Virus record (IMG/VR): IMGVR_UViG_3300046171_000034
Location: 1-31,039 of that record
Source of the DNA: a virus
DNA length: 31,039 nt
Reading direction: 5' to 3' (one strand)
Part shown: piece after piece, positions 10,012 through 22,915 of the stretch
Layout of the letters: each line of letters opens with the position of its first letter
Position numbering within the stretch: position 1 is the first letter of the stretch
Made by a program: the position numbers and the translations under genes
Notes under the pieces: model-generated
Database searches by the model: none
What the model was told of the DNA's origin: nothing
What the model saw: only the letters and a program-made list of their open reading frames with translations

Positions 10012-12470
10012 TTAGCTAAAGCAATATTCGCTGTCTAAGACTGCTCTGACGTCTAGATCTCCTTTTTCTGGAACTGGTGCTAAATCCATGTCTGGGTTAG
10101 CCAATCGGTTACGACACTCGATCTCGAAGTTGCCTAAGACACAGTTGTCTTCATACATGTCGACAATCGCGTGACGAATGTTGTGGTAGAATGCCCAGGT
10201 ATCTGCGGCGTTAGTCCCAAAGCTGTCGTGGATCATAAAGAAGTCCTCGATGCCCTGGTCTAGCCCGTGGCAAATTGCCAGCTGCATGTGGGCAGCATCG
10301 AGCGAGTGCACGAAGTTAGGCGCAACGCCAGCCCGTGCTTTCCTGGTGTCATACTTCAGCCCAATCCCATGTAGTGTGACACGGGTCTTGCTCATCAGCT
10401 TGGCCTCTCGGTCATACAGGAAGATCTTCACTCGTTTGACATCAGGCTTAGTGTACCTTTGGATGGCTGGGAAACCACTAGGCGTTGTCCAACGAACTGA
10501 CCTACCTTCACGTGCTAATGCATCAGCATATGACTGTAAGAAGGCCATACCTTGGGCAACACTAGAGATGACCTTTTGCACTGCCTGGTAGTTGAACTTA
10601 GCTAGGAACCGTGCGTTGGTCTCTTGCTCTCTATAGTCACCGAAAGGATGTTCAACTATGGTTCCATAGTTCACGTCTTTCTGTAGCGGCTGCATAAGAT
10701 CCTCAATGATCTGATCGCCAAACCCACGTTCGATGCTGGAATATCCATAGGTCATTACATTTCGTTTGACGGTAGATCTATTGATGCCAAACTCTAGCCA
10801 CTTCTGTGCTTCCTCAGATCCATCTTCAGTCAGATCCTGGATCACCTGGTCAGCGACAGTCTGGTAGACGTCCTGACATTTGTCATCAGGCAGTAGGTTG
10901 ACCATGTGACCATCCTTAGATGACCGCAGTGCCAGGGCATAGTGCTGTACGCCACTGTTAGTCCCATCCAGGGAGATCGGAAGGTGACACACTGGGTCAT
11001 CACTGTAGTAAGCAAAGACAGCTGCCAGAAACTGGAACGGTTTGTCAGCTTGGATCCAGAGATCTAGAGTTCGACTTGGGTTGTCGTTAACTAGACGTAA
11101 CCACTCGTCGTTATCCAAGACCCACTGGATCCTGTCGTCTAGGCTCTTCTTCGAGATCTTCTCAAAGTCACCTACGTTTGCCAGGTGGATCGCAAGCCAT
11201 CCTTTGTCTTCATCTGCCACAGGTTTACCCCTGGCAAACTCGAACAGTGCTTTCACATGGTCATCCCTGTGATAGTTAAAGTGTGACACGGGATACATTC
11301 GGCCCCTGAAGTCGAAGTTCCAAGGTAAGTAGAACTGTTCGAACTCAGACATCTTGTAGGCTGTCTTTAGGTCATTATGCATGACAACCAGATTAGCTAC
11401 TGACTCACGTCTCTTCACGTGCCACTGCTTTTGGTCACGCTTGAGCTGACGCTGGGTCTTCTCAGGTAGACTGTCGAATTCGTCAGGTAACTTAGGAAAC
11501 TCTGGTGGCTCTAGTTCTGGGAACTTACCGAAACGTACCTTCTCACGACGCAATAGTCCATGACCTCTAGGACACGCTTGTTGATCCTCAGAGGGGTCGC
11601 CTGGAGTGCGTTAAGTGCTTTGACATACAGAGGCTCTGGGTTCTTCTCAAAGTCTCTGTCGACGGCTCTCCGCTGCTCTGAGGTAGCCTTACGGATCAGA
11701 GGTACCAAAGCTGACAACATGTCATCCTGGTAAGCTCCAGAATCGAAGGCAGTCCAAGGCTTCGGTGGTATGACTAGAGGGCCATACATAGGTTCTGCCC
11801 AGGATGCATCGAACATACGACGATCCATCAGATCCTTGGCCTCATCAGTTAACGTAATGTGTCTATGTGTCTTTAGGTTTTCTTCTGTCGTTGATATCTC
11901 GAATATGTCTGTAGCCTCTAAGACTGAAGACAACAGTGGAGATGCCACATGTACCTTCTTACTACGGCTCCACTTCTCGAACTGAAAGCCAGCTTTAGTG
12001 GCTATGATACGTGCAGCCTTCATTCTGTAGCGTTCACTGGAATGATCCTTGGTGACCTGGGACACCAGTCTCTTGAAGAGGCTACTGTCGTATGTCTTTA
12101 GATCTTCAGCCCAGACTTCAAGTTCTAGCCTAGATCCTATGGCTGAAAGACACCCAGCTAAGGTGTAATCTTTAAGCACACTCTCGTAACAACAGTTCAA
12201 CACTATGTAGGCTAAGGTGTCTGGGTCTTGGTCTACAAGTTCTTCATACCACTCGCTCTTCTTACCCTTGCCACTATAGAAACGCTCTGCGTCTTTCTCT
12301 AGTCGATCCTTGATGTCTTTAGACACCTTAGGTAGGGCCTCGGTGATGATCTGATGTGGTACTTCGCGTTGGCTGGGGGATAGTTTCTCCTGTCTTCGTT
12401 GGTATCTCTTCTGACCCTCTTGGATCATTTGCTGCTCTAGTTCTATCTGTAAGTCAGTGACTTTTGTCAT
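10012..12470 (-). CDS. Single-subunit DNA-dependent RNA polymerase (T7-type), interrupted by one frame break
   Basis: It transcribes phage genes from phage-specific promoters. Two overlapping ORFs together make one enzyme of about 825 aa (T7: 883). The N-terminal part is 12470-11511, ending after RINKRVLEV; the C-terminal part is 11553-10012. The second part carries NFDFRGRMYP, the catalytic SLDGTNSGVQH (Asp), RSTVKRNVMTYGYSS (Lys, Tyr), APNFVHSLDAAH and IHDSFGT (second Asp). The frames join if one base is added near 11554, at a TATTGC with no standard slippery site, so a base-call deletion is likeliest. A genuine mutation or split enzyme is possible. ATG 12470 has GGGAG upstream and a phage promoter-like motif 24 bases further up. 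Confidence 0.93.
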
Positions 12471-13413: not shown

Positions 13414-13545
13414 TTAGAACGGTGGCTCTTCGCCGTCATATGTTGGTAGCCAGGGTTCGTCGTATGTTGGCTTAGGTTCGGTAGGCTTAGGCAACGGTGG
13501 AAACAGCTGCCTAAGGAAGTCGTCTAAGTTGTCATCCGAATACAT
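13414..13545 (-). CDS. Small proline-rich acidic protein, 43 aa
   Basis: MYSDDNLDDFLRQLFPPLPK then repeated Pro-Thr/Glu-Pro segments ending DGEEPPF. The frame extends upstream to 13596, but those extra residues are the antiframe of the small membrane protein, so the start at 13545 is preferred. It overlaps that gene by 14 bases. Binding site weak. Function unknown. Confidence 0.45.
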   Translation of the reverse strand: MYSDDNLDDFLRQLFPPLPKPTEPKPTYDEPWLPTYDGEEPPF

Positions 13546-13618
13546 GTGCTGCACCCAGACCGACGTAGAGCATGACAAACAGTGCCAGGCATCCAATGAG
13601 GTCTCCTAGCCAGTTCAT
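13532..13618 (-). CDS. Small single-pass membrane protein, 28 aa
   Basis: The ATG overlaps the TGA of the upstream gene (ATGA), a typical coupled start. Residues 5-25 (GDLIGCLALFVMLYVGLGAA) form one strong transmembrane helix. It is too short for most gene finders. Placed between attP and integrase; unknown function. Confidence 0.55.
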   Translation of the reverse strand: MNWLGDLIGCLALFVMLYVGLGAAHVFG

Positions 13619-13845
13619 GCTGCCACCTCGGTGTTCAGCTTGCGGTACCACTCAAGTAGTGCTGCCTGAGATCCGTCAGTCTTGACAATCTTGCCATCAG
13701 CGGTCGTGTACTCGCCGTACATGTTGTAGTCGTATAGGAATTTGCTGCGGCAATCTTCGGTGCTATTGCCAGTGTAGACGTCTTCCCACTCATGGGTCGC
13801 GGGATCACGTACAAACAGTGTAAAAACAGGTGTGATATTAGTCAT
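13615..13845 (-). CDS. Hypothetical protein, 76 aa, first gene after attP
   Basis: ATG 13845 has AAGGAGA eight bases upstream. The predicted soluble protein begins MTNITPVFTLFVRDPATHEW and has aromatic residues spread through it (FLYDYNMYGEY). No known domain. It is the first ORF downstream of the tRNA-like attP segment and the promoter-like motif at 14030, so it is likely expressed with the two small ORFs and integrase. Confidence 0.65.
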   Translation of the reverse strand: MTNITPVFTLFVRDPATHEWEDVYTGNSTEDCRSKFLYDYNMYGEYTTADGKIVKTDGSQAALLEWYRKLNTEVAA

Positions 13846-13899
13846 CGATCAGTCTCCTTATAGTTAAGGACTGATGCGGTTCCGATGATATCTGTAAGT

Positions 13900-13960
13900 T
13901 GGTAGCGGAGGAGGGACTTGAACCCCCGACACGCGGATTATGATTCCGCTGCTCTAACCA
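13900..13960 (-). other. attP: Probable attP: 3' half of a CAU-anticodon tRNA gene
   Basis: Read on the minus strand, the segment contains the D-arm end GGTTAGAGC, an anticodon stem GCGGA/TCCGC with loop ATCATAA (anticodon CAU, Met or Ile2), a T-arm with GGTTCAAGTCC, the acceptor strand CTCCGCT, discriminator A and encoded CCA. The matching 5' acceptor strand AGCGGAG is absent upstream, where the sequence is unrelated, so this is not a complete tRNA gene. A 3' tRNA fragment beside an integrase gene is the usual form of attP, restoring the host tRNA after integration. Confidence 0.75.
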
Positions 13961-14029
13961 CCGATATCTGGACGCATCGTCCGTACCCTCTTATGAGTCA
14001 ACGGATGTAACCTTGTCAATAGTTTTTTA

Positions 14030-14223: not shown

Positions 14224-14652
14224 TTACTTGAAGTAGTTCGAGGTTCGGAAGCCAGGACATGCTTTTGGTGCATACTGGTTGTGACCTGAGACCTTAGTGA
14301 TTGGGTAGGTGTTCTTTAGATCCGCAACGAGTTGCTGCAATGACGCCATCTGCTCGGGCGTAAAGTTCTCACTGAAGCGATCATTGGATGTCGAGCCAAA
14401 GCCCCCAAACAAGGCGATCCCACATGTATTCTTATTTCTTCCCTTGGTGTGGGCACCGTTTTCACTCATAGGTCGACCTTCGGTGATCGTACCGTCCCTG
14501 TCGATGGTGTAATGATATCCCAGATCCCGCCATTTTCGGTCCTCGACGTGCCACCTCTTAAGTTCCGCTGTCTTCTCGGCAGCTGTCTTGTCTTTCCACC
14601 AGCCTGGGCGTGTGGCTGTACAGTGGATGATGATCTCGTTAACTGGTCTCAT
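14224..14652 (-). CDS. N-acetylmuramoyl-L-alanine amidase (T7 lysozyme-like endolysin)
   Basis: 142-aa zinc amidase that cuts the bond between muramic acid and the peptide in peptidoglycan. ATG 14652 with AAGGAGA is preferred to the longer frame at 14706. Zinc and catalytic residues match T7 gp3.5: H10 in IIIHCTAT, Y46 in LGYHYTIDRDG, H124 in VSGHNQYAPKACPGF, K130 and C132. T7 lysozyme also binds and inhibits its RNA polymerase, so a regulatory role here is possible but inferred. It overlaps the upstream lipoprotein gene by 14 bases. Confidence 0.93.
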   Translation of the reverse strand: MRPVNEIIIHCTATRPGWWKDKTAAEKTAELKRWHVEDRKWRDLGYHYTIDRDGTITEGRPMSENGAHTKGRNKNTCGIALFGGFGSTSNDRFSENFTPEQMASLQQLVADLKNTYPITKVSGHNQYAPKACPGFRTSNYFK

Positions 14653-15019
14653 TGGGTCTCCTTCGTAGGCTTGCGAACATCGACAGAAGGCCCCTGCCCA
14701 TTTCACCTGGTGAAGGCAGTAGCCATCCCAGGATCAGCGCAATGATGACCCAGGGCGGTATGTCAGTGTTCTTGATGTTGATGCTTTCGACGTCTCGGGT
14801 TTGCACTGTGTCTTTCAACTCAGTGACCTCGATGTCTCCGTCTTCTGTTCTTATGTTCGACTGGTCGTTCACCACTTGCTGGTTAGCTTCCTTGGCAAGC
14901 TGAGTGCCGACAGCGGTCACAGATGGACCACCACCGCCAGGCATAAGCCAGCCAGGGATGCTAGAACAGGATGCAAGGGTGAAACTCAGGACGACCAGGA
15001 CTAACGCCTTAATAGTCAT
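14639..15019 (-). CDS. Lipoprotein with C-terminal membrane helix, unimolecular spanin candidate
   Basis: 126 aa. The N-terminus is a lipoprotein signal with lipobox LASC (Cys18), followed by a Gly-rich GGGGP segment, a polar periplasmic part, and a C-terminal transmembrane helix about residues 88-102 (PPWVIIALILGWLLPS). An outer-membrane lipid anchor plus an inner-membrane helix is the topology of unimolecular spanins, which fuse the membranes at the last step of lysis. Placement between holin candidate and amidase supports this. Similar GGGGP...WLLPSPGE proteins are common in marine phages. Function is inferred from topology. Confidence 0.7.
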   Translation of the reverse strand: MTIKALVLVVLSFTLASCSSIPGWLMPGGGGPSVTAVGTQLAKEANQQVVNDQSNIRTEDGDIEVTELKDTVQTRDVESINIKNTDIPPWVIIALILGWLLPSPGEMGRGLLSMFASLRRRPNETS

Positions 15020-16284: not shown

Positions 16285-19200
16285 TTAGGCTCCTTCTAAT
16301 TGTGCCAAACGCGCTTCTAATGCGTCACACTTTGCTGATAATTCTTGGACTGCTTTAACTAGGATTGGATATGAACGCACATAATCCGCCTCTAGTCTGC
16401 TAGGGTTGTTGTCATTGACCAAGCGAGTGCGCGACCCTGACCCATGATCCATCTCAACTTCACGCAATTCCTGAGCAATGAAACCCATGTCTGGTTTTGC
16501 GCCATACGAACCATCGCGGCGGTTCCATGTGAACTTGACAGGACGCATGTCGTTGATGAAGTCGAGGCCGTAAGGCAAATCCTCAATCGCCGTTTTGTCG
16601 CGTTCGTCAGATAGGCTTGAGATCGTTTGGACGTTACAGCGGAGCGAACTTATGTTGGCATCGCCTAGCGTGATTTCGTTACTGACCGTAGTGCTACTGG
16701 TTAAAGCATTAGCACCAATGAGGGTGTTATTATCGCCACTCTCAAGATCAACTGTGCCATTTCCAGCGTTGTGGCCTACTAATGTATTGTTAGAACCAGT
16801 ATTCACATAATATCCCGCAAGAGAACCCAACGCTACGTTGTTTCCCCCAGTGGTCAATGATCTCAACGCATAATTTCCAAAGCCATTGTTATAAGAACCC
16901 GCTGTCGTAGCCGTACCCAGCCCAGCTTGAAAGCCCATAAAGGTATTATAACTTGACGTTGTAACATTATAGCCTGCCTCACAGCCCATAAAGGTGTTGT
17001 ATCCACCAGTTGTGATAGTAGCCCCGCTAAACGATCCGACAGTTGTGTTCAGGGTTCCTGTAGTCAGGTCATATAGTGCTTTGTGACCGATGCCGACACT
17101 GTAGTTACTTGATCCACCGTTACGTCCAGCCTCATTACCCACAAAAGTGCAGTAATCACCGCCATCCATGTCATAGCCAGCCAATATCCCAACACATACG
17201 TTATATTGTGACGCGCTATTAGCACTTAGGTGCGCTGAATGGCCTATCGCGGTGGTGTAAGATGTCCCCTTTGCTTGGGAACCTATGACCACAGAGTTCA
17301 TACAATTAGCATCAATAACATCTGCTGAGTAACCGATAAGTACGTTCTGATCGCCGCCATATAACTGAGAACCCGCACCATAACCTACGGCTGTATTATA
17401 GTATGGATAATAGGTCGTGGATCGGCTTAATGCATTCGCCCCTATTCCTGTGCTATAGTGGTGACTTCCGTCTGACACACTATTGTAACCTACAGACGTT
17501 GCGTAATCTCCGTAGTTATCATTCTGAGCGTTATAACCTATAGCGGTTTGGTAATCCTTGCTGCTTGAGTTGTAGTTACCAGCCAGTGAGCCAACGTATG
17601 TCCCGCCAGTTAGATATTGGCCGCGACCAGATGCATAGCCTACTGCAGTTGAGTTATTATCGGTTGCATTGTCCAGCATTGTTGCGCCCCCGACGGCAGT
17701 GCAGAAAGAAGCCGTCGTTACAGCTTGCCCAGCACGTTCCCCTACGAAAGCATTGTAATTACCAGTTGTTAAGTTAACACCAGCATCAGTCCCAACCGCC
17801 GTGTTTCTAAAACCCGTCGTTACCGCACTTAAAGTTTGATACCCCAACGCGGTGTTGTAAGAGCCAGTGTTATTTTGTGCATCTAGCGAATAAGTACCGA
17901 TTGCAGTGTTATATGCACCTTCATTGAAGAAGCCAGCCCGATAACCTACGGCAGTTATATCGCTATTGCCGTATGCATATTGACCAGCCGCTACACCGAC
18001 AAAAGTACATGCAGTTTCCGTTGTTAGGCTTTGACCAGCGTAACTACCAACTAGCACATGTGAACCACCAGTAGTCGCGGCATAACCAGCGTTTTCCCCG
18101 ATTGCGACTGTTACCCCTGCCGTTGTTGCTACAGGAAGGGCATTTTTTCCGATGGCGACATTTCTAGTGCCTGTCGTGATACTACCTAAAGTATTCTCCC
18201 CGATTGGAATATTGTCCTTAGAAGCAGACGCTGGATCATCAGGCCACTTATTTTGCCAAAGCATCACAGAGCCAGTTTGATCTGGGATCGTTACGGTTTG
18301 GTCAGCGGTGGGGTCAGTGACGGTTACTGTGGTTTCAAAGTCGTCATCTGTGGCACCTTCAAAGATCAGATCATATGTGTTCTTTAGCTGTATGTCGCTT
18401 TGAAACTGTACAGTGTAATCGCCTGATCTTATTAACAGGCTTCCGCCGCTTGCGTTACCTTGAGATTGTATATACGACCCCGATGGTATGGCGACAGGTT
18501 GGCCTTGGCCAACTGCGGATAGTGATAGATAGCCTGCATAACCAACACCATTAGGGGCTTCGGTCACTGAAATAGTTTCATTCGCCGTAAGTTCGCCATC
18601 AATATCAACTTGACCGCTAAACGTTCCACCCGCAAAAGTCGGGCTATCGGTTGTTGCCAAGCCCTGATCTATAGCTTTTACAGATGCTTCAGAAGTAAGT
18701 TCGCTGTCCATAAGCGCACCAGCCGCTGTGACATTCGCCGTATCCGTTACATCAGCACTCGCCTCAATACCGTCTAATTTACTGTGGTCTGCATCAGTAA
18801 ATGCATTAGTGTCGCTATTGCTTTCATATGCTGCCTTAATCTCAGCCGCCGTCTGATCGGCAGTAGCGTTTGCTTCGATGCCATCCAGCTTAGACTTGTC
18901 AGTAGATGACATCAGACCATCAGAAGAGGTCGTCGCTACTGTTATATCTACAGTTGACCACTGATAGTCCGTACCGTTCCACTCCAGGTATTGACCATTT
19001 GATGCACCAGAAGTGTTCAGGTGTGTGTCTACATCACTGTCTGTATACCCTGCGGGTACAGTAGCCCAATCGTAGTCCGTACCGTCCCACTTGAGGTATT
19101 CACCAGTTGCTGCGGTGGATGTGTTCAGGTGGCTGTCAACTAGTGGTTCCACATTGGCTGCGTCAGTGACATCGGCTGACGCCTCGATCCCATCTAGTTT

Positions 19201-20280
19201 ACTGTGGTCTGCATCAGTAAATGCATTAGTGTCGCTATTGCTTTCGTAGGCTGCCTTTATTTCAGACGCAGTTTGATCCGCTGTCGCGTTAGCCTCCACA
19301 CCATCCAACTTTGATTTGTCAGAGGATGACATAAGACCATCAGAAGAGGTCGTCGCTACTGTAGTAATCGCAGATGTGACCCAATCAGTACCATTGTAAA
19401 CTAGAAGTTCGTTATCGGTTGTGTTGAAGTATAGGTCGCCCTCGTTCACAGCGTCACCGTTAGCATCGACAGTCGGGTCGGATGCATGTGCGCCCAGGTA
19501 AATACCCTCGAAGTCTGCCAGTGCAGCTAACGCACTGTCTCGGGCACTTTCCGCAGCTGTCTGAGCGGATGATGCACCGGTAGCACTTGTTGCTGCGTTA
19601 GACGCCTCATTGCTTGCGGTAGTGGCACTTGAAGCTGCGTTGGACGCCTGGGTTGATGCTGTAGTTGCACTTGTTGCTGCATTAGTAGCACTTGTTGCTG
19701 CGTTAGACGCCTGGGTCGATGCTGTGGTTGCACTTGCAGCTGCGTTAGTTTCACTGGTAGCTGCGGCAGTTGCACTGTCAGCCGCATTAGATGCATGAGT
19801 AGATGCTGTTGATGCACTGGTAGAAGCGTTAGTCGCCTGAGTAGCCGCAGTGGTAGCACTTGAAGATGCATTTGTTGCACTGGCAGCTGCGGCAGTTGCA
19901 CTTGTTGATGCCTCAGATGCCTTGGTGGTTGCTGTAGTTGCACTTGTAGCTGCGGCAGTTGCACTTGTTGATGCCTCAGATGCCTTGGTGGTTGCTGTAG
20001 TTGCACTTGTAGCTGCGGCAGTTGCACTAGCAGCCGCCTCATCGGCTTTTGTACTTGCAGTGTCGGCACTGTCGGACGCCTCAGAGGCTTTGGTTGTCGC
20101 TGTGGCGGCTACAGTTGTTACTGACGCAGCTGCGGCCTCAGCATTGGTTTCAGCTGTCTCTGCGGCTGTCTGAGCTTCCTGGGCTGCATCACGGGCTGCT
20201 TCGGCTGCGCTCTTTGCGCCCTCGATAGCGTCCTGTTCGTTATTAGTTAAACCAGATCCCGAGTAGAATGATGACGACAT
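16285..20280 (-). CDS. Giant tail fibre with S74 intramolecular chaperone domain
   Basis: 1331-aa fibre, likely the host receptor-binding protein. Residues about 15-265 are Ala/Thr/Ser-rich heptad-like repeats (for example ATTATTKASEAS) expected to form a trimeric coiled coil. Residues about 300-560 hold two copies of a tail-fibre repeat (LMSS.DKSKLDG.EANATA). Residues about 690-1210 are many short repeats of the type NTAIG..AG, as in YadA-like beta-roll heads. The last 108 residues are a Peptidase_S74 chaperone beginning SDERDKTAIED (S1224, K1229 as likely dyad) and ending in a coiled coil; such domains trimerise the fibre then cut themselves off. Start 20280 has GGAGA upstream. Confidence 0.92.
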   Translation of the reverse strand: MSSSFYSGSGLTNNEQDAIEGAKSAAEAARDAAQEAQTAAETAETNAEAAAASVTTVAATATTKASEASDSADTASTKADEAAASATAAATSATTATTKASEASTSATAAATSATTATTKASEASTSATAAAASATNASSSATTAATQATNASTSASTASTHASNAADSATAAATSETNAAASATTASTQASNAATSATNAATSATTASTQASNAASSATTASNEASNAATSATGASSAQTAAESARDSALAALADFEGIYLGAHASDPTVDANGDAVNEGDLYFNTTDNELLVYNGTDWVTSAITTVATTSSDGLMSSSDKSKLDGVEANATADQTASEIKAAYESNSDTNAFTDADHSKLDGIEASADVTDAANVEPLVDSHLNTSTAATGEYLKWDGTDYDWATVPAGYTDSDVDTHLNTSGASNGQYLEWNGTDYQWSTVDITVATTSSDGLMSSTDKSKLDGIEANATADQTAAEIKAAYESNSDTNAFTDADHSKLDGIEASADVTDTANVTAAGALMDSELTSEASVKAIDQGLATTDSPTFAGGTFSGQVDIDGELTANETISVTEAPNGVGYAGYLSLSAVGQGQPVAIPSGSYIQSQGNASGGSLLIRSGDYTVQFQSDIQLKNTYDLIFEGATDDDFETTVTVTDPTADQTVTIPDQTGSVMLWQNKWPDDPASASKDNIPIGENTLGSITTGTRNVAIGKNALPVATTAGVTVAIGENAGYAATTGGSHVLVGSYAGQSLTTETACTFVGVAAGQYAYGNSDITAVGYRAGFFNEGAYNTAIGTYSLDAQNNTGSYNTALGYQTLSAVTTGFRNTAVGTDAGVNLTTGNYNAFVGERAGQAVTTASFCTAVGGATMLDNATDNNSTAVGYASGRGQYLTGGTYVGSLAGNYNSSSKDYQTAIGYNAQNDNYGDYATSVGYNSVSDGSHHYSTGIGANALSRSTTYYPYYNTAVGYGAGSQLYGGDQNVLIGYSADVIDANCMNSVVIGSQAKGTSYTTAIGHSAHLSANSASQYNVCVGILAGYDMDGGDYCTFVGNEAGRNGGSSNYSVGIGHKALYDLTTGTLNTTVGSFSGATITTGGYNTFMGCEAGYNVTTSSYNTFMGFQAGLGTATTAGSYNNGFGNYALRSLTTGGNNVALGSLAGYYVNTGSNNTLVGHNAGNGTVDLESGDNNTLIGANALTSSTTVSNEITLGDANISSLRCNVQTISSLSDERDKTAIEDLPYGLDFINDMRPVKFTWNRRDGSYGAKPDMGFIAQELREVEMDHGSGSRTRLVNDNNPSRLEADYVRSYPILVKAVQELSAKCDALEARLAQLEGA
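18778..19245. repeat. 420-bp-spaced direct repeats within the fibre gene
   Basis: The 48-bp segment 18778-18825 recurs exactly at 19198-19245, and the segment around 18911-18942 recurs at 19331-19362 with the same 420-bp (140-codon) offset. These are two copies of one fibre module. High DNA identity suggests recent duplication or gene conversion, and could allow module loss or gain by recombination. Confidence 0.75.
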
Positions 20281-21789: not shown

Positions 21790-22915
21790 TTATGAAAGAC
21801 CAGTGATCATACCACCGTCAGCATAGTTCATATGCTTCAATGAGTATTCGCCGACGATAAAGTGACGATCAGAGTCACCATTCTTCGACAATAGTGTACG
21901 TGAGAACGGACGTAGTACACATGAACGCCACATTGACGGATCAATTAGGAATGCGTGTGTAGTCAACTGGTGGCGGTTTAGGACCACTTTGTATTCGCCG
22001 TATGGGCTACACGGCTCTTCGCCTAAGGTCGTTAATCTTAGACCGTCTTTCGACTGCTCATGCTTTCACATGAGATGAGACTATATCATCACCGCTGTTC
22101 GCAGTGCCTGGCGCTTCCACTCACTTGAGTGTACTTCCTTGCGGAATAGTCGTTGCACCTTCCCCTCTCGGGGCTTGGCTCAGGATTACCATATCTCTCG
22201 ACTTAGGCTTTCCCTGAGTTCACCAGGTTTAATGTACGCTAGCCACTTCAACGTACAGGTCAATCACGTTGACCAAGTTGCGACCCTGTTGGATCTCACG
22301 GTTACGACCAGATGCCGCTGCAAAGTCAGCAACGATCTGAGCATCCGCTGGTTTGATCATTAGAACTGATGGATCAGAACCGTTGTTGAAGCAGTCTTCA
22401 CCAAGCTCTAGGACTTTCGCCTCTGTTAGAGCGTCAGTTGCGTTGGCACCAGCGTCGACAGATGTTGAGATCTGCTGTGTTGCTGAGTCCATCTCACGCG
22501 CTACTGAGCTTGAGCCAGTTGCTTTAGCATTGTCGACACCAACATAAGCACGTTCTAGGTCGCGCTTAATTTCTTTAAGGGCCTTACCAAGCTGATATGC
22601 GGTTTCTTTCGCTCTACCATAAGTTGCAATCGCATCAGATGTTGCACTGACCTGAAAAGCCTTATGTAGGATTTGCGTGTTCTGGGTACGCTCTACAGCA
22701 TCTGTAAGAGTTGCCATAGTCGCGTCGGCCCCTTCCACCTGTGCGTTATCCGCCGCAGACGCAAGTGAGTCTTCTAACCAACTGAAAGTACGAGCAGAAA
22801 CCTTTTCTGAACGCATCATTGTGAACATCGGCGTGTCTGTTGGTGTGATATCCGAAATGATATCTGAAACGTCTTCTTTCTTACCGACCTGGTCGTAAGT
22901 AGTATATGTAGCCAT
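21790..22915 (-). CDS. Major capsid protein (SU10-type), interrupted by a group I intron
   Basis: HK97-fold shell protein. Exon 1 is 22915-22251 and exon 2 is 22009-21790; joined they give 885 bases, 294 codons plus stop, all in frame. The N-terminus (TYDQVGKKEDVSDIISDITP, then EDSLASAADNAQVEG and KTFQVSATSDAI-like AFQVSATSDAI) matches the SU10 major head protein family. The splice junction rebuilds IDLYV-SPYGEYKVVLNR, the conserved C-terminal strand of the family. Without splicing, translation would stop seven codons or so into the intron, giving a 228-aa protein lacking the conserved C-terminus. AAGGATG precedes ATG 22915. Confidence 0.9.
22010..22250 (-). ncRNA. Group I self-splicing intron in the capsid gene, 241 nt
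   Basis: Read on the minus strand. P1: the exon end TGTACGT pairs with intron GCGTACA, leaving the required U.G wobble at the 5' splice site. P10: intron GGCTA, directly before that guide, pairs with the 3' exon start TAGCC. The intron ends in G (position 22010). Core: CTCAGGGAAAGCCTAA, then AATCCTGAGCCAAGCC (P4-P5 region), GGTGCAACGACTAT (P7 5' strand) and GATATAGTC (P7 3' strand), with GACTAT/ATAGTC pairing. These motifs resemble IC3-type introns of bacterial tRNA genes. There is no ORF, so no homing endonuclease. Exact boundaries follow from P1, P10 and the reading frame. Confidence 0.95.

Follow-up and report, generated by a model that had tools for sequence, protein, structure and literature searches.

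Why does a phage genome carry the 3ʹ part of a tRNA gene close to an integrase gene? The locus lies in an IMG/VR virus record of 31,039 bp, itself a fragment, which was analysed whole and is called the window here. A sequence-only reading had taken the segment for an attP made of the 3ʹ half of a tRNA gene with a CAU anticodon. Our analysis bears this out, through a tRNA half near the integrase in all 21 close relatives, a junction in one relative (L130) and an anticodon-loop scar in the genome of Rhodobacteraceae AG-319-F15. With a probability of about 0.9, we read the segment as the attP of a phage that encodes a T7-type RNA polymerase and integrates into its host, a marine alphaproteobacterium; in this reading the target is the elongator tRNA-Met gene, and strand exchange probably runs across the anticodon loop. 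The phage almost certainly carries the 3ʹ part of tRNA-Met so as to insert into that gene and keep it working. Integration of the window phage itself is something we infer from its relatives and from the segment match.

The tRNA half and its surroundings

The minus strand of the window, read from 13955 to 13900, is AGAGCAGCGGAATCATAATCCGCGTGTCGGGGGTTCAAGTCCCTCCTCCGCTACCA. Its layout, AGAGCAGCGGA-ATCATAA-TCCGC-GTGTC-GGGGG-TTCAAGT-CCCTC-CTCCGCT-A-CCA, comprises an anticodon arm with CAT, a variable loop, a T arm, the 3ʹ acceptor strand and an encoded CCA. Within the anticodon arm, GCGGA occupies 13949-13945, ATCATAA (with CAT) 13944-13938 and TCCGC 13937-13933. The segment also includes the D stem's 3ʹ strand and some of the D loop, slightly more than first described. 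Seven extra D-loop bases, up to 13962 (GGTGGTT), are likewise identical to host tRNA genes, which makes the copied part the final 63 nt of the tRNA gene (13900-13962), and 13899-13962 match the tRNA-Met gene of AG-319-F15 over 64 bp with 100% identity. The 5ʹ acceptor strand and the 5ʹ D strand are absent, and ARAGORN called no tRNA in the window. The description of a segment intact from the anticodon arm to the encoded CCA, with the 5ʹ acceptor strand gone, is therefore correct when read on the minus strand.

Two findings had been named in advance as telling against an attP: a complete cloverleaf with a distant 5ʹ half, and the absence of any host tRNA that shares the segment. No distant 5ʹ half was recovered, a search of the window for GGCGGAGTAGCTCAG with up to three mismatches giving one match where chance alone would give 0.91. 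At least 119 bacterial contigs contain the 56-bp core without a mismatch; those listed are nearly all from Alphaproteobacteria, and ARAGORN found an intact tRNA-Met in 10 of 10 checked contigs that have it. A chance match is excluded as the source of the segment. On the integrase side of attP, TCATCGG is found again 3ʹ of the CCA in most relatives; TCATCGGA and GCATCAG are possible accessory sites.

Features around the tRNA 3ʹ half, in window coordinates
Feature	Coordinates	Strand	Basis
T7-type RNA polymerase, downstream of integrase, two overlapping ORFs	10012..12470	minus	PF00940, PF14700
Tyrosine integrase, 276 aa	12567..13397	minus	Pfam PF00589 1.3e-20; PHROG integrase 9e-43
60-aa ORF, between attP and integrase	13414..13596	minus	open reading frame
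76-aa ORF, between attP and integrase	13615..13845	minus	conserved in L124, L128, L131, L133, L145
Flank motifs TCATCGGA and GCATCAG, integrase side of attP	13871..13888	minus	TCATCGG recurrence in relatives
Proposed attP core: 3ʹ part of probable elongator tRNA-Met(CAU), D loop to encoded CCA plus one base	13899..13962	minus	match to AG-319-F15; 56-bp core in bacterial contigs
Anticodon stem-loop GCGGA-ATCATAA-TCCGC	13933..13949	minus	putative integrase core sites and 7-bp crossover
Left phage flank GGACGATGCGTCC-AGATATC	13963..13982	minus	kept in close relatives L149-L152, L169
Amidase	14224-14706	minus	gene order on minus strand

Along the minus strand the order is amidase, a terminator-like hairpin, attP, the 76-aa ORF, the 60-aa ORF, integrase, T7-type RNA polymerase and replication genes. 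The hairpin, at 14090-14057 between amidase and attP, is one against 0.8 expected. The segment had been placed next to the integrase; it is near, but about 500 bp upstream of the integrase start, and the gap holds the two small ORFs, which have no PHROG or Pfam match. The closest named integrases, mostly from pelagiphage, are about 31-32% identical.

The tyrosine integrase keeps its catalytic residues: R141, K168, H222, R225, H249 and Y258 are invariant in alignment A1. This bears on whether the tRNA half is a disused relic, left by the imprecise excision of an ancestor. Phages may keep tRNA pieces from past integrations, as suggested for LUZ100 (PMC10134795). However, a relic should decay, and the half is unchanged from the anticodon arm to the CCA in relatives whose integrases are 54-65% identical and whose flanks differ. 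With the catalytic residues retained as well, we regard a relic as very unlikely.

The remainder of the window is a mosaic. Between 1118 and 29143, a T7-type RNA polymerase and an endonuclease I occur together with a portal, adaptor and capsid that fall in SU10 families, the best annotated portals being 28-30% identical; a ribonucleotide reductase and a MazG domain protein are encoded in the same interval. The RNA polymerase is split at 11511-11553 (minus strand) and is a single frame in the close relatives L124, L131 and L133, with a one-base gap there; a sequencing error, a real mutation and a programmed frameshift are all possible. Rfam at gathering thresholds gave a sole match in the window, and none at the tRNA segment: a group I intron (RF00028, 94 bits, 22057-22280, minus strand, in the stretch 22012-22280) that interrupts the major capsid gene. 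The capsid gene of L138 is uninterrupted, and its protein aligns to the window as two blocks about 240 bp apart. A 1331-aa ORF (16285-20280, minus strand) has a long, repetitive, alanine- and threonine-rich N-terminal part and is, by its look, probably a tail fibre or similar structural protein.

Target gene, host and integrated forms

We used the 37 distinct tRNAs recovered from Ruegeria conchae as the reference set for naming the target. Three of them have a CAT anticodon. One is the initiator (CGCGGGATGG...). A second starts GGGCCTG and has an acceptor stem with C4 and C5; these resemble E. coli tRNA-Ile2 and, given the determinants of the lysidine enzyme, we take this tRNA to be Ile2-like. 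The attP copy comes from the third, GGCGGAG..., most likely the elongator tRNA-Met. The target had been proposed as Met or Ile2. Met stands as the likely target, and Ile2 was rejected because of the acceptor stem in the R. conchae comparison.

The segment had further been offered as a direct route to the host, and here the sequence-only reading was too hopeful. Among the matches listed, the segment is identical in Rhodobacterales, Sphingomonadales, SAR116 and others. Because it is identical across these groups, it reaches Alphaproteobacteria only, and naming the host from the segment alone was rejected for such wide conservation. Mizuno et al. (2013) gave a warning of this kind about host identification from tRNA segments in general (PMC3861242).

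The junction flank of L130 is a sharper hint. In this 12.9-kb relative, whose integrase is 75% identical, 26 bp of non-phage sequence lead into a complete tRNA-Met, followed by phage sequence; the left phage flank is missing, and the tRNA 5ʹ half and bacterial sequence stand in its place. Among 391 genomes sampled from the order, the best match to the flank was the single-cell genome AG-319-F15, at 96% over 95 bp, 18 bp of which lie upstream of the gene. L130 is a probable prophage junction in a relative of the window phage, although the contig may be chimeric, misassembled at the 60 bp in common. The host is most likely a marine alphaproteobacterium of the Rhodobacteraceae.

In AG-319-F15 the tRNA-Met gene at L323:2650-2726 is intact, and a displaced piece of it lies 2.3 kb downstream. 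This piece opens with the final base of the 5ʹ stem strand, continues into the anticodon loop and runs on through the CCA. Such a displaced 3ʹ copy indicates that some element has gone into this gene, the exchange taking place at the anticodon loop. The 2.3 kb between gene and copy (in L323:2650-5116) contain oxidoreductase-like and LysR-like ORFs, judged by reading translations, and no integrase ORF; the stretch is probably the remnant of an island with the same target. Without an integrase ORF in that stretch, the displaced piece was rejected as a mark of the window phage. A 41-kb contig with two copies (L127/L148) was likewise rejected as a two-junction prophage, as its ends look like variants of one phage region. 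A restored tRNA at one junction was seen in L130 only, and no displaced-fragment junction of a phage was found.

Relatives and the switching of targets

Relatives were gathered from viral contigs by integrase similarity, with the tRNA not used. Upstream of the integrase gene, each of the 21 loci carries a tRNA 3ʹ half, of Met in 15 and of Phe in six. The Phe loci (L154-L159, integrase 81% identical) have a tRNA-Phe(GAA) half in place of Met. The two types have the anticodon stem in common and are identical over the 12 bp that flank the anticodon loop on either side; they differ in the loop, the T arm and the acceptor. Phe is also the nearest to Met around the anticodon among the 36 other R. 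conchae tRNAs, with 22 of 24 positions the same against 18 for the next. The Phe-type integrases form one group (support 99/96) nested among Met users in the tree, and hence the Phe type is probably derived from Met users. The Phe half occurs exactly in three of 198 Rhodobacteraceae, with one mismatch in a fourth, and each of the three matches that were fetched is called an intact tRNA-Phe.

A profile search supplied loci of the wider family, which were scanned for tRNA 3ʹ halves; shuffled sequence gave no match. The halves found there are of Met, Phe, Cys(GCA), Arg(TCT), Lys(TTT), Thr(TGT), Tyr(GTA) and Leu(CAA). The tRNA half cannot be called universal in this family, because 32 of the 84 rows had no detectable half at slightly looser settings, and in seven the upstream sequence was too short for the scan. 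Six non-Met targets could be ranked. They agree with Met at a mean of 7.5 of the ten anticodon-stem bases, against 4.1 for random tRNAs (p 1.4e-4; over 12+12 bases, p 2.8e-4). The test is weakened by its stand-in host, R. conchae, by shared ancestry and by the great divergence of some of the integrases.

Where does the crossover lie? In the window attP, identity to the target extends further 5ʹ than the anticodon stem-loop, so its position is judged from relatives. In L252, L246 and L249/L250/L256, attP and target become identical just ahead of the anticodon stem or within it, which puts the crossover in the anticodon arm or further 3ʹ; these five loci show the identity from the anticodon stem-loop that marks the anticodon-loop (A) subclass. 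Since the anticodon stems of the ranked targets are Met-like beyond chance, the crossover is probably at the 7-bp anticodon loop. The predicted contacts of the integrase are then with both arms of the anticodon stem, GCGGA and TCCGC, in attP as well as in the host gene for elongator tRNA-Met, and strands would be exchanged across the 7-bp loop. Because attP holds everything from the loop to the CCA, the phage-borne 3ʹ half would make the tRNA gene whole and functional again at the integrase-side junction, and the original 3ʹ half of the host gene would end up at the far end of the insertion. It is established that anticodon arms resemble canonical core sites (PMC8371274) and that tRNA attachment sites can be centred on the anticodon (PMC4383910). 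The 276-aa integrase aligns with Xer-type recombinases and, to judge by length and alignment, may lack the arm-binding domain of lambda Int.

In L247, L249, L255, L260, L263, L264, L267 and L275, the tRNA half sits between the arms of an inverted repeat of 8-14 bp; the sequences of these repeats vary from phage to phage, and the arms still pair. The mean run is 7.15 bp in matched flanks against 4.92 bp in swapped flanks, and none of 20,000 permutations was as high, with rows that are not fully independent. Around the window's own half the repeat is 6 bp, near chance; an enclosing repeat was rejected there as weak, though the family exceeds swapped pairs. A more speculative proposal, which we think unlikely, is that the clade uses one integrase and retargets it by swapping the whole attP tRNA half within limits of anticodon-stem similarity, the inverted repeats controlling attP as a stem or as paired sites until integration removes them.

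The repeats also bear on whether the segment functions within a phage transcript, as a tRNA-like RNA element, and not as a DNA recombination site. They enclose the half in several relatives, and the strand folds somewhat better than shuffles (z -2.7), but any piece of a tRNA is expected to fold well. Moreover, the half follows the integrase gene and swaps to tRNAs with similar anticodon stems, which fits recombination and not an RNA role, and the RNA role is hardly credible to us.

We therefore keep to the attP reading, which predicts exact junction sequences and links a group of uncultured marine phages with alphaproteobacterial hosts, probably from the Rhodobacteraceae. The relatives are an unusually clear record of switching among tRNA genes with similar anticodon arms. 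Their attP sites make up a naturally arisen series of changes in integrase target, which bears on whether anticodon-stem similarity decides the next tRNA. This graded set and the inverted-repeat excess in distant relatives are two additions worth recording.

Mode of integration and known systems

How lasting would integration be? An alternative that differs in life cycle only, and to which we give a little less than even odds, is that integration is transient and rare in lytic growth, as reported for the T7-like phages S-TIP37 and P-SSP7; T7-like cyanophages integrate at tRNA-Leu, and stable lysogens are not formed (PMC8776855). Consistent with this, a search of up to 780 sampled alphaproteobacterial genomes, including Rhodobacteraceae, gave no integrase closer than 35% identity and no close prophage. 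In addition, no repressor, excisionase or MarR-type regulator was recognised among the window ORFs scanned, and HTVC019P has a MarR beside its integrase. However, the window is a fragment, so a repressor may sit outside it, and L130 has the look of an integrated copy. Lysogeny does occur in other T7-like phages, which infect Pelagibacter and Agrobacterium (PMC10134795).

The strategy of a tRNA-gene attP is already known in kind. T7-like phages with tRNA-linked attachment sites have been described (PMC8776855; PMC3861242; PMC8631192; PMC10134795), as has frequent switching of integrase targets (PMC4383910). Of the features of temperate T7-like phages, the window has an RNA polymerase with an adjacent integrase, but its structural genes are of SU10 families and not T7-type. 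We keep the phage out of the Autographiviridae because its portal, adaptor and capsid match SU10 families.

The pelagiphage HTVC019P group resembles the window phage in having the integrase just upstream of the T7-type RNA polymerase, and a tRNA-Leu fragment identical to that of the host has been reported in an HTVC019P-like genome (PMC3861242). It differs in its integrase (about 31% identical) and its tRNA, and the window has no recognised MarR and has the SU10-type portal, adaptor and capsid. The T7-like cyanophages P-SSP7 and S-TIP37 share T7-like replication, an integrase and an attP that matches its tRNA, tRNA-Leu, perfectly, and their integration requires both integrase and attP (PMC8776855). 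Their attP lies downstream of the integrase, whereas that of the window lies upstream; host and tRNA differ, and the window phage is known from sequence alone. Closest in kind is the anticodon-centred class of the Islander/Williams work, in which the site is centred on the anticodon loop, the element makes the gene complete again and a 3ʹ fragment is displaced (PMC4383910). The locus described here is of that same kind, and what it adds is a phage clade in which the targets of switching can be put in order by the similarity of their anticodon stems.
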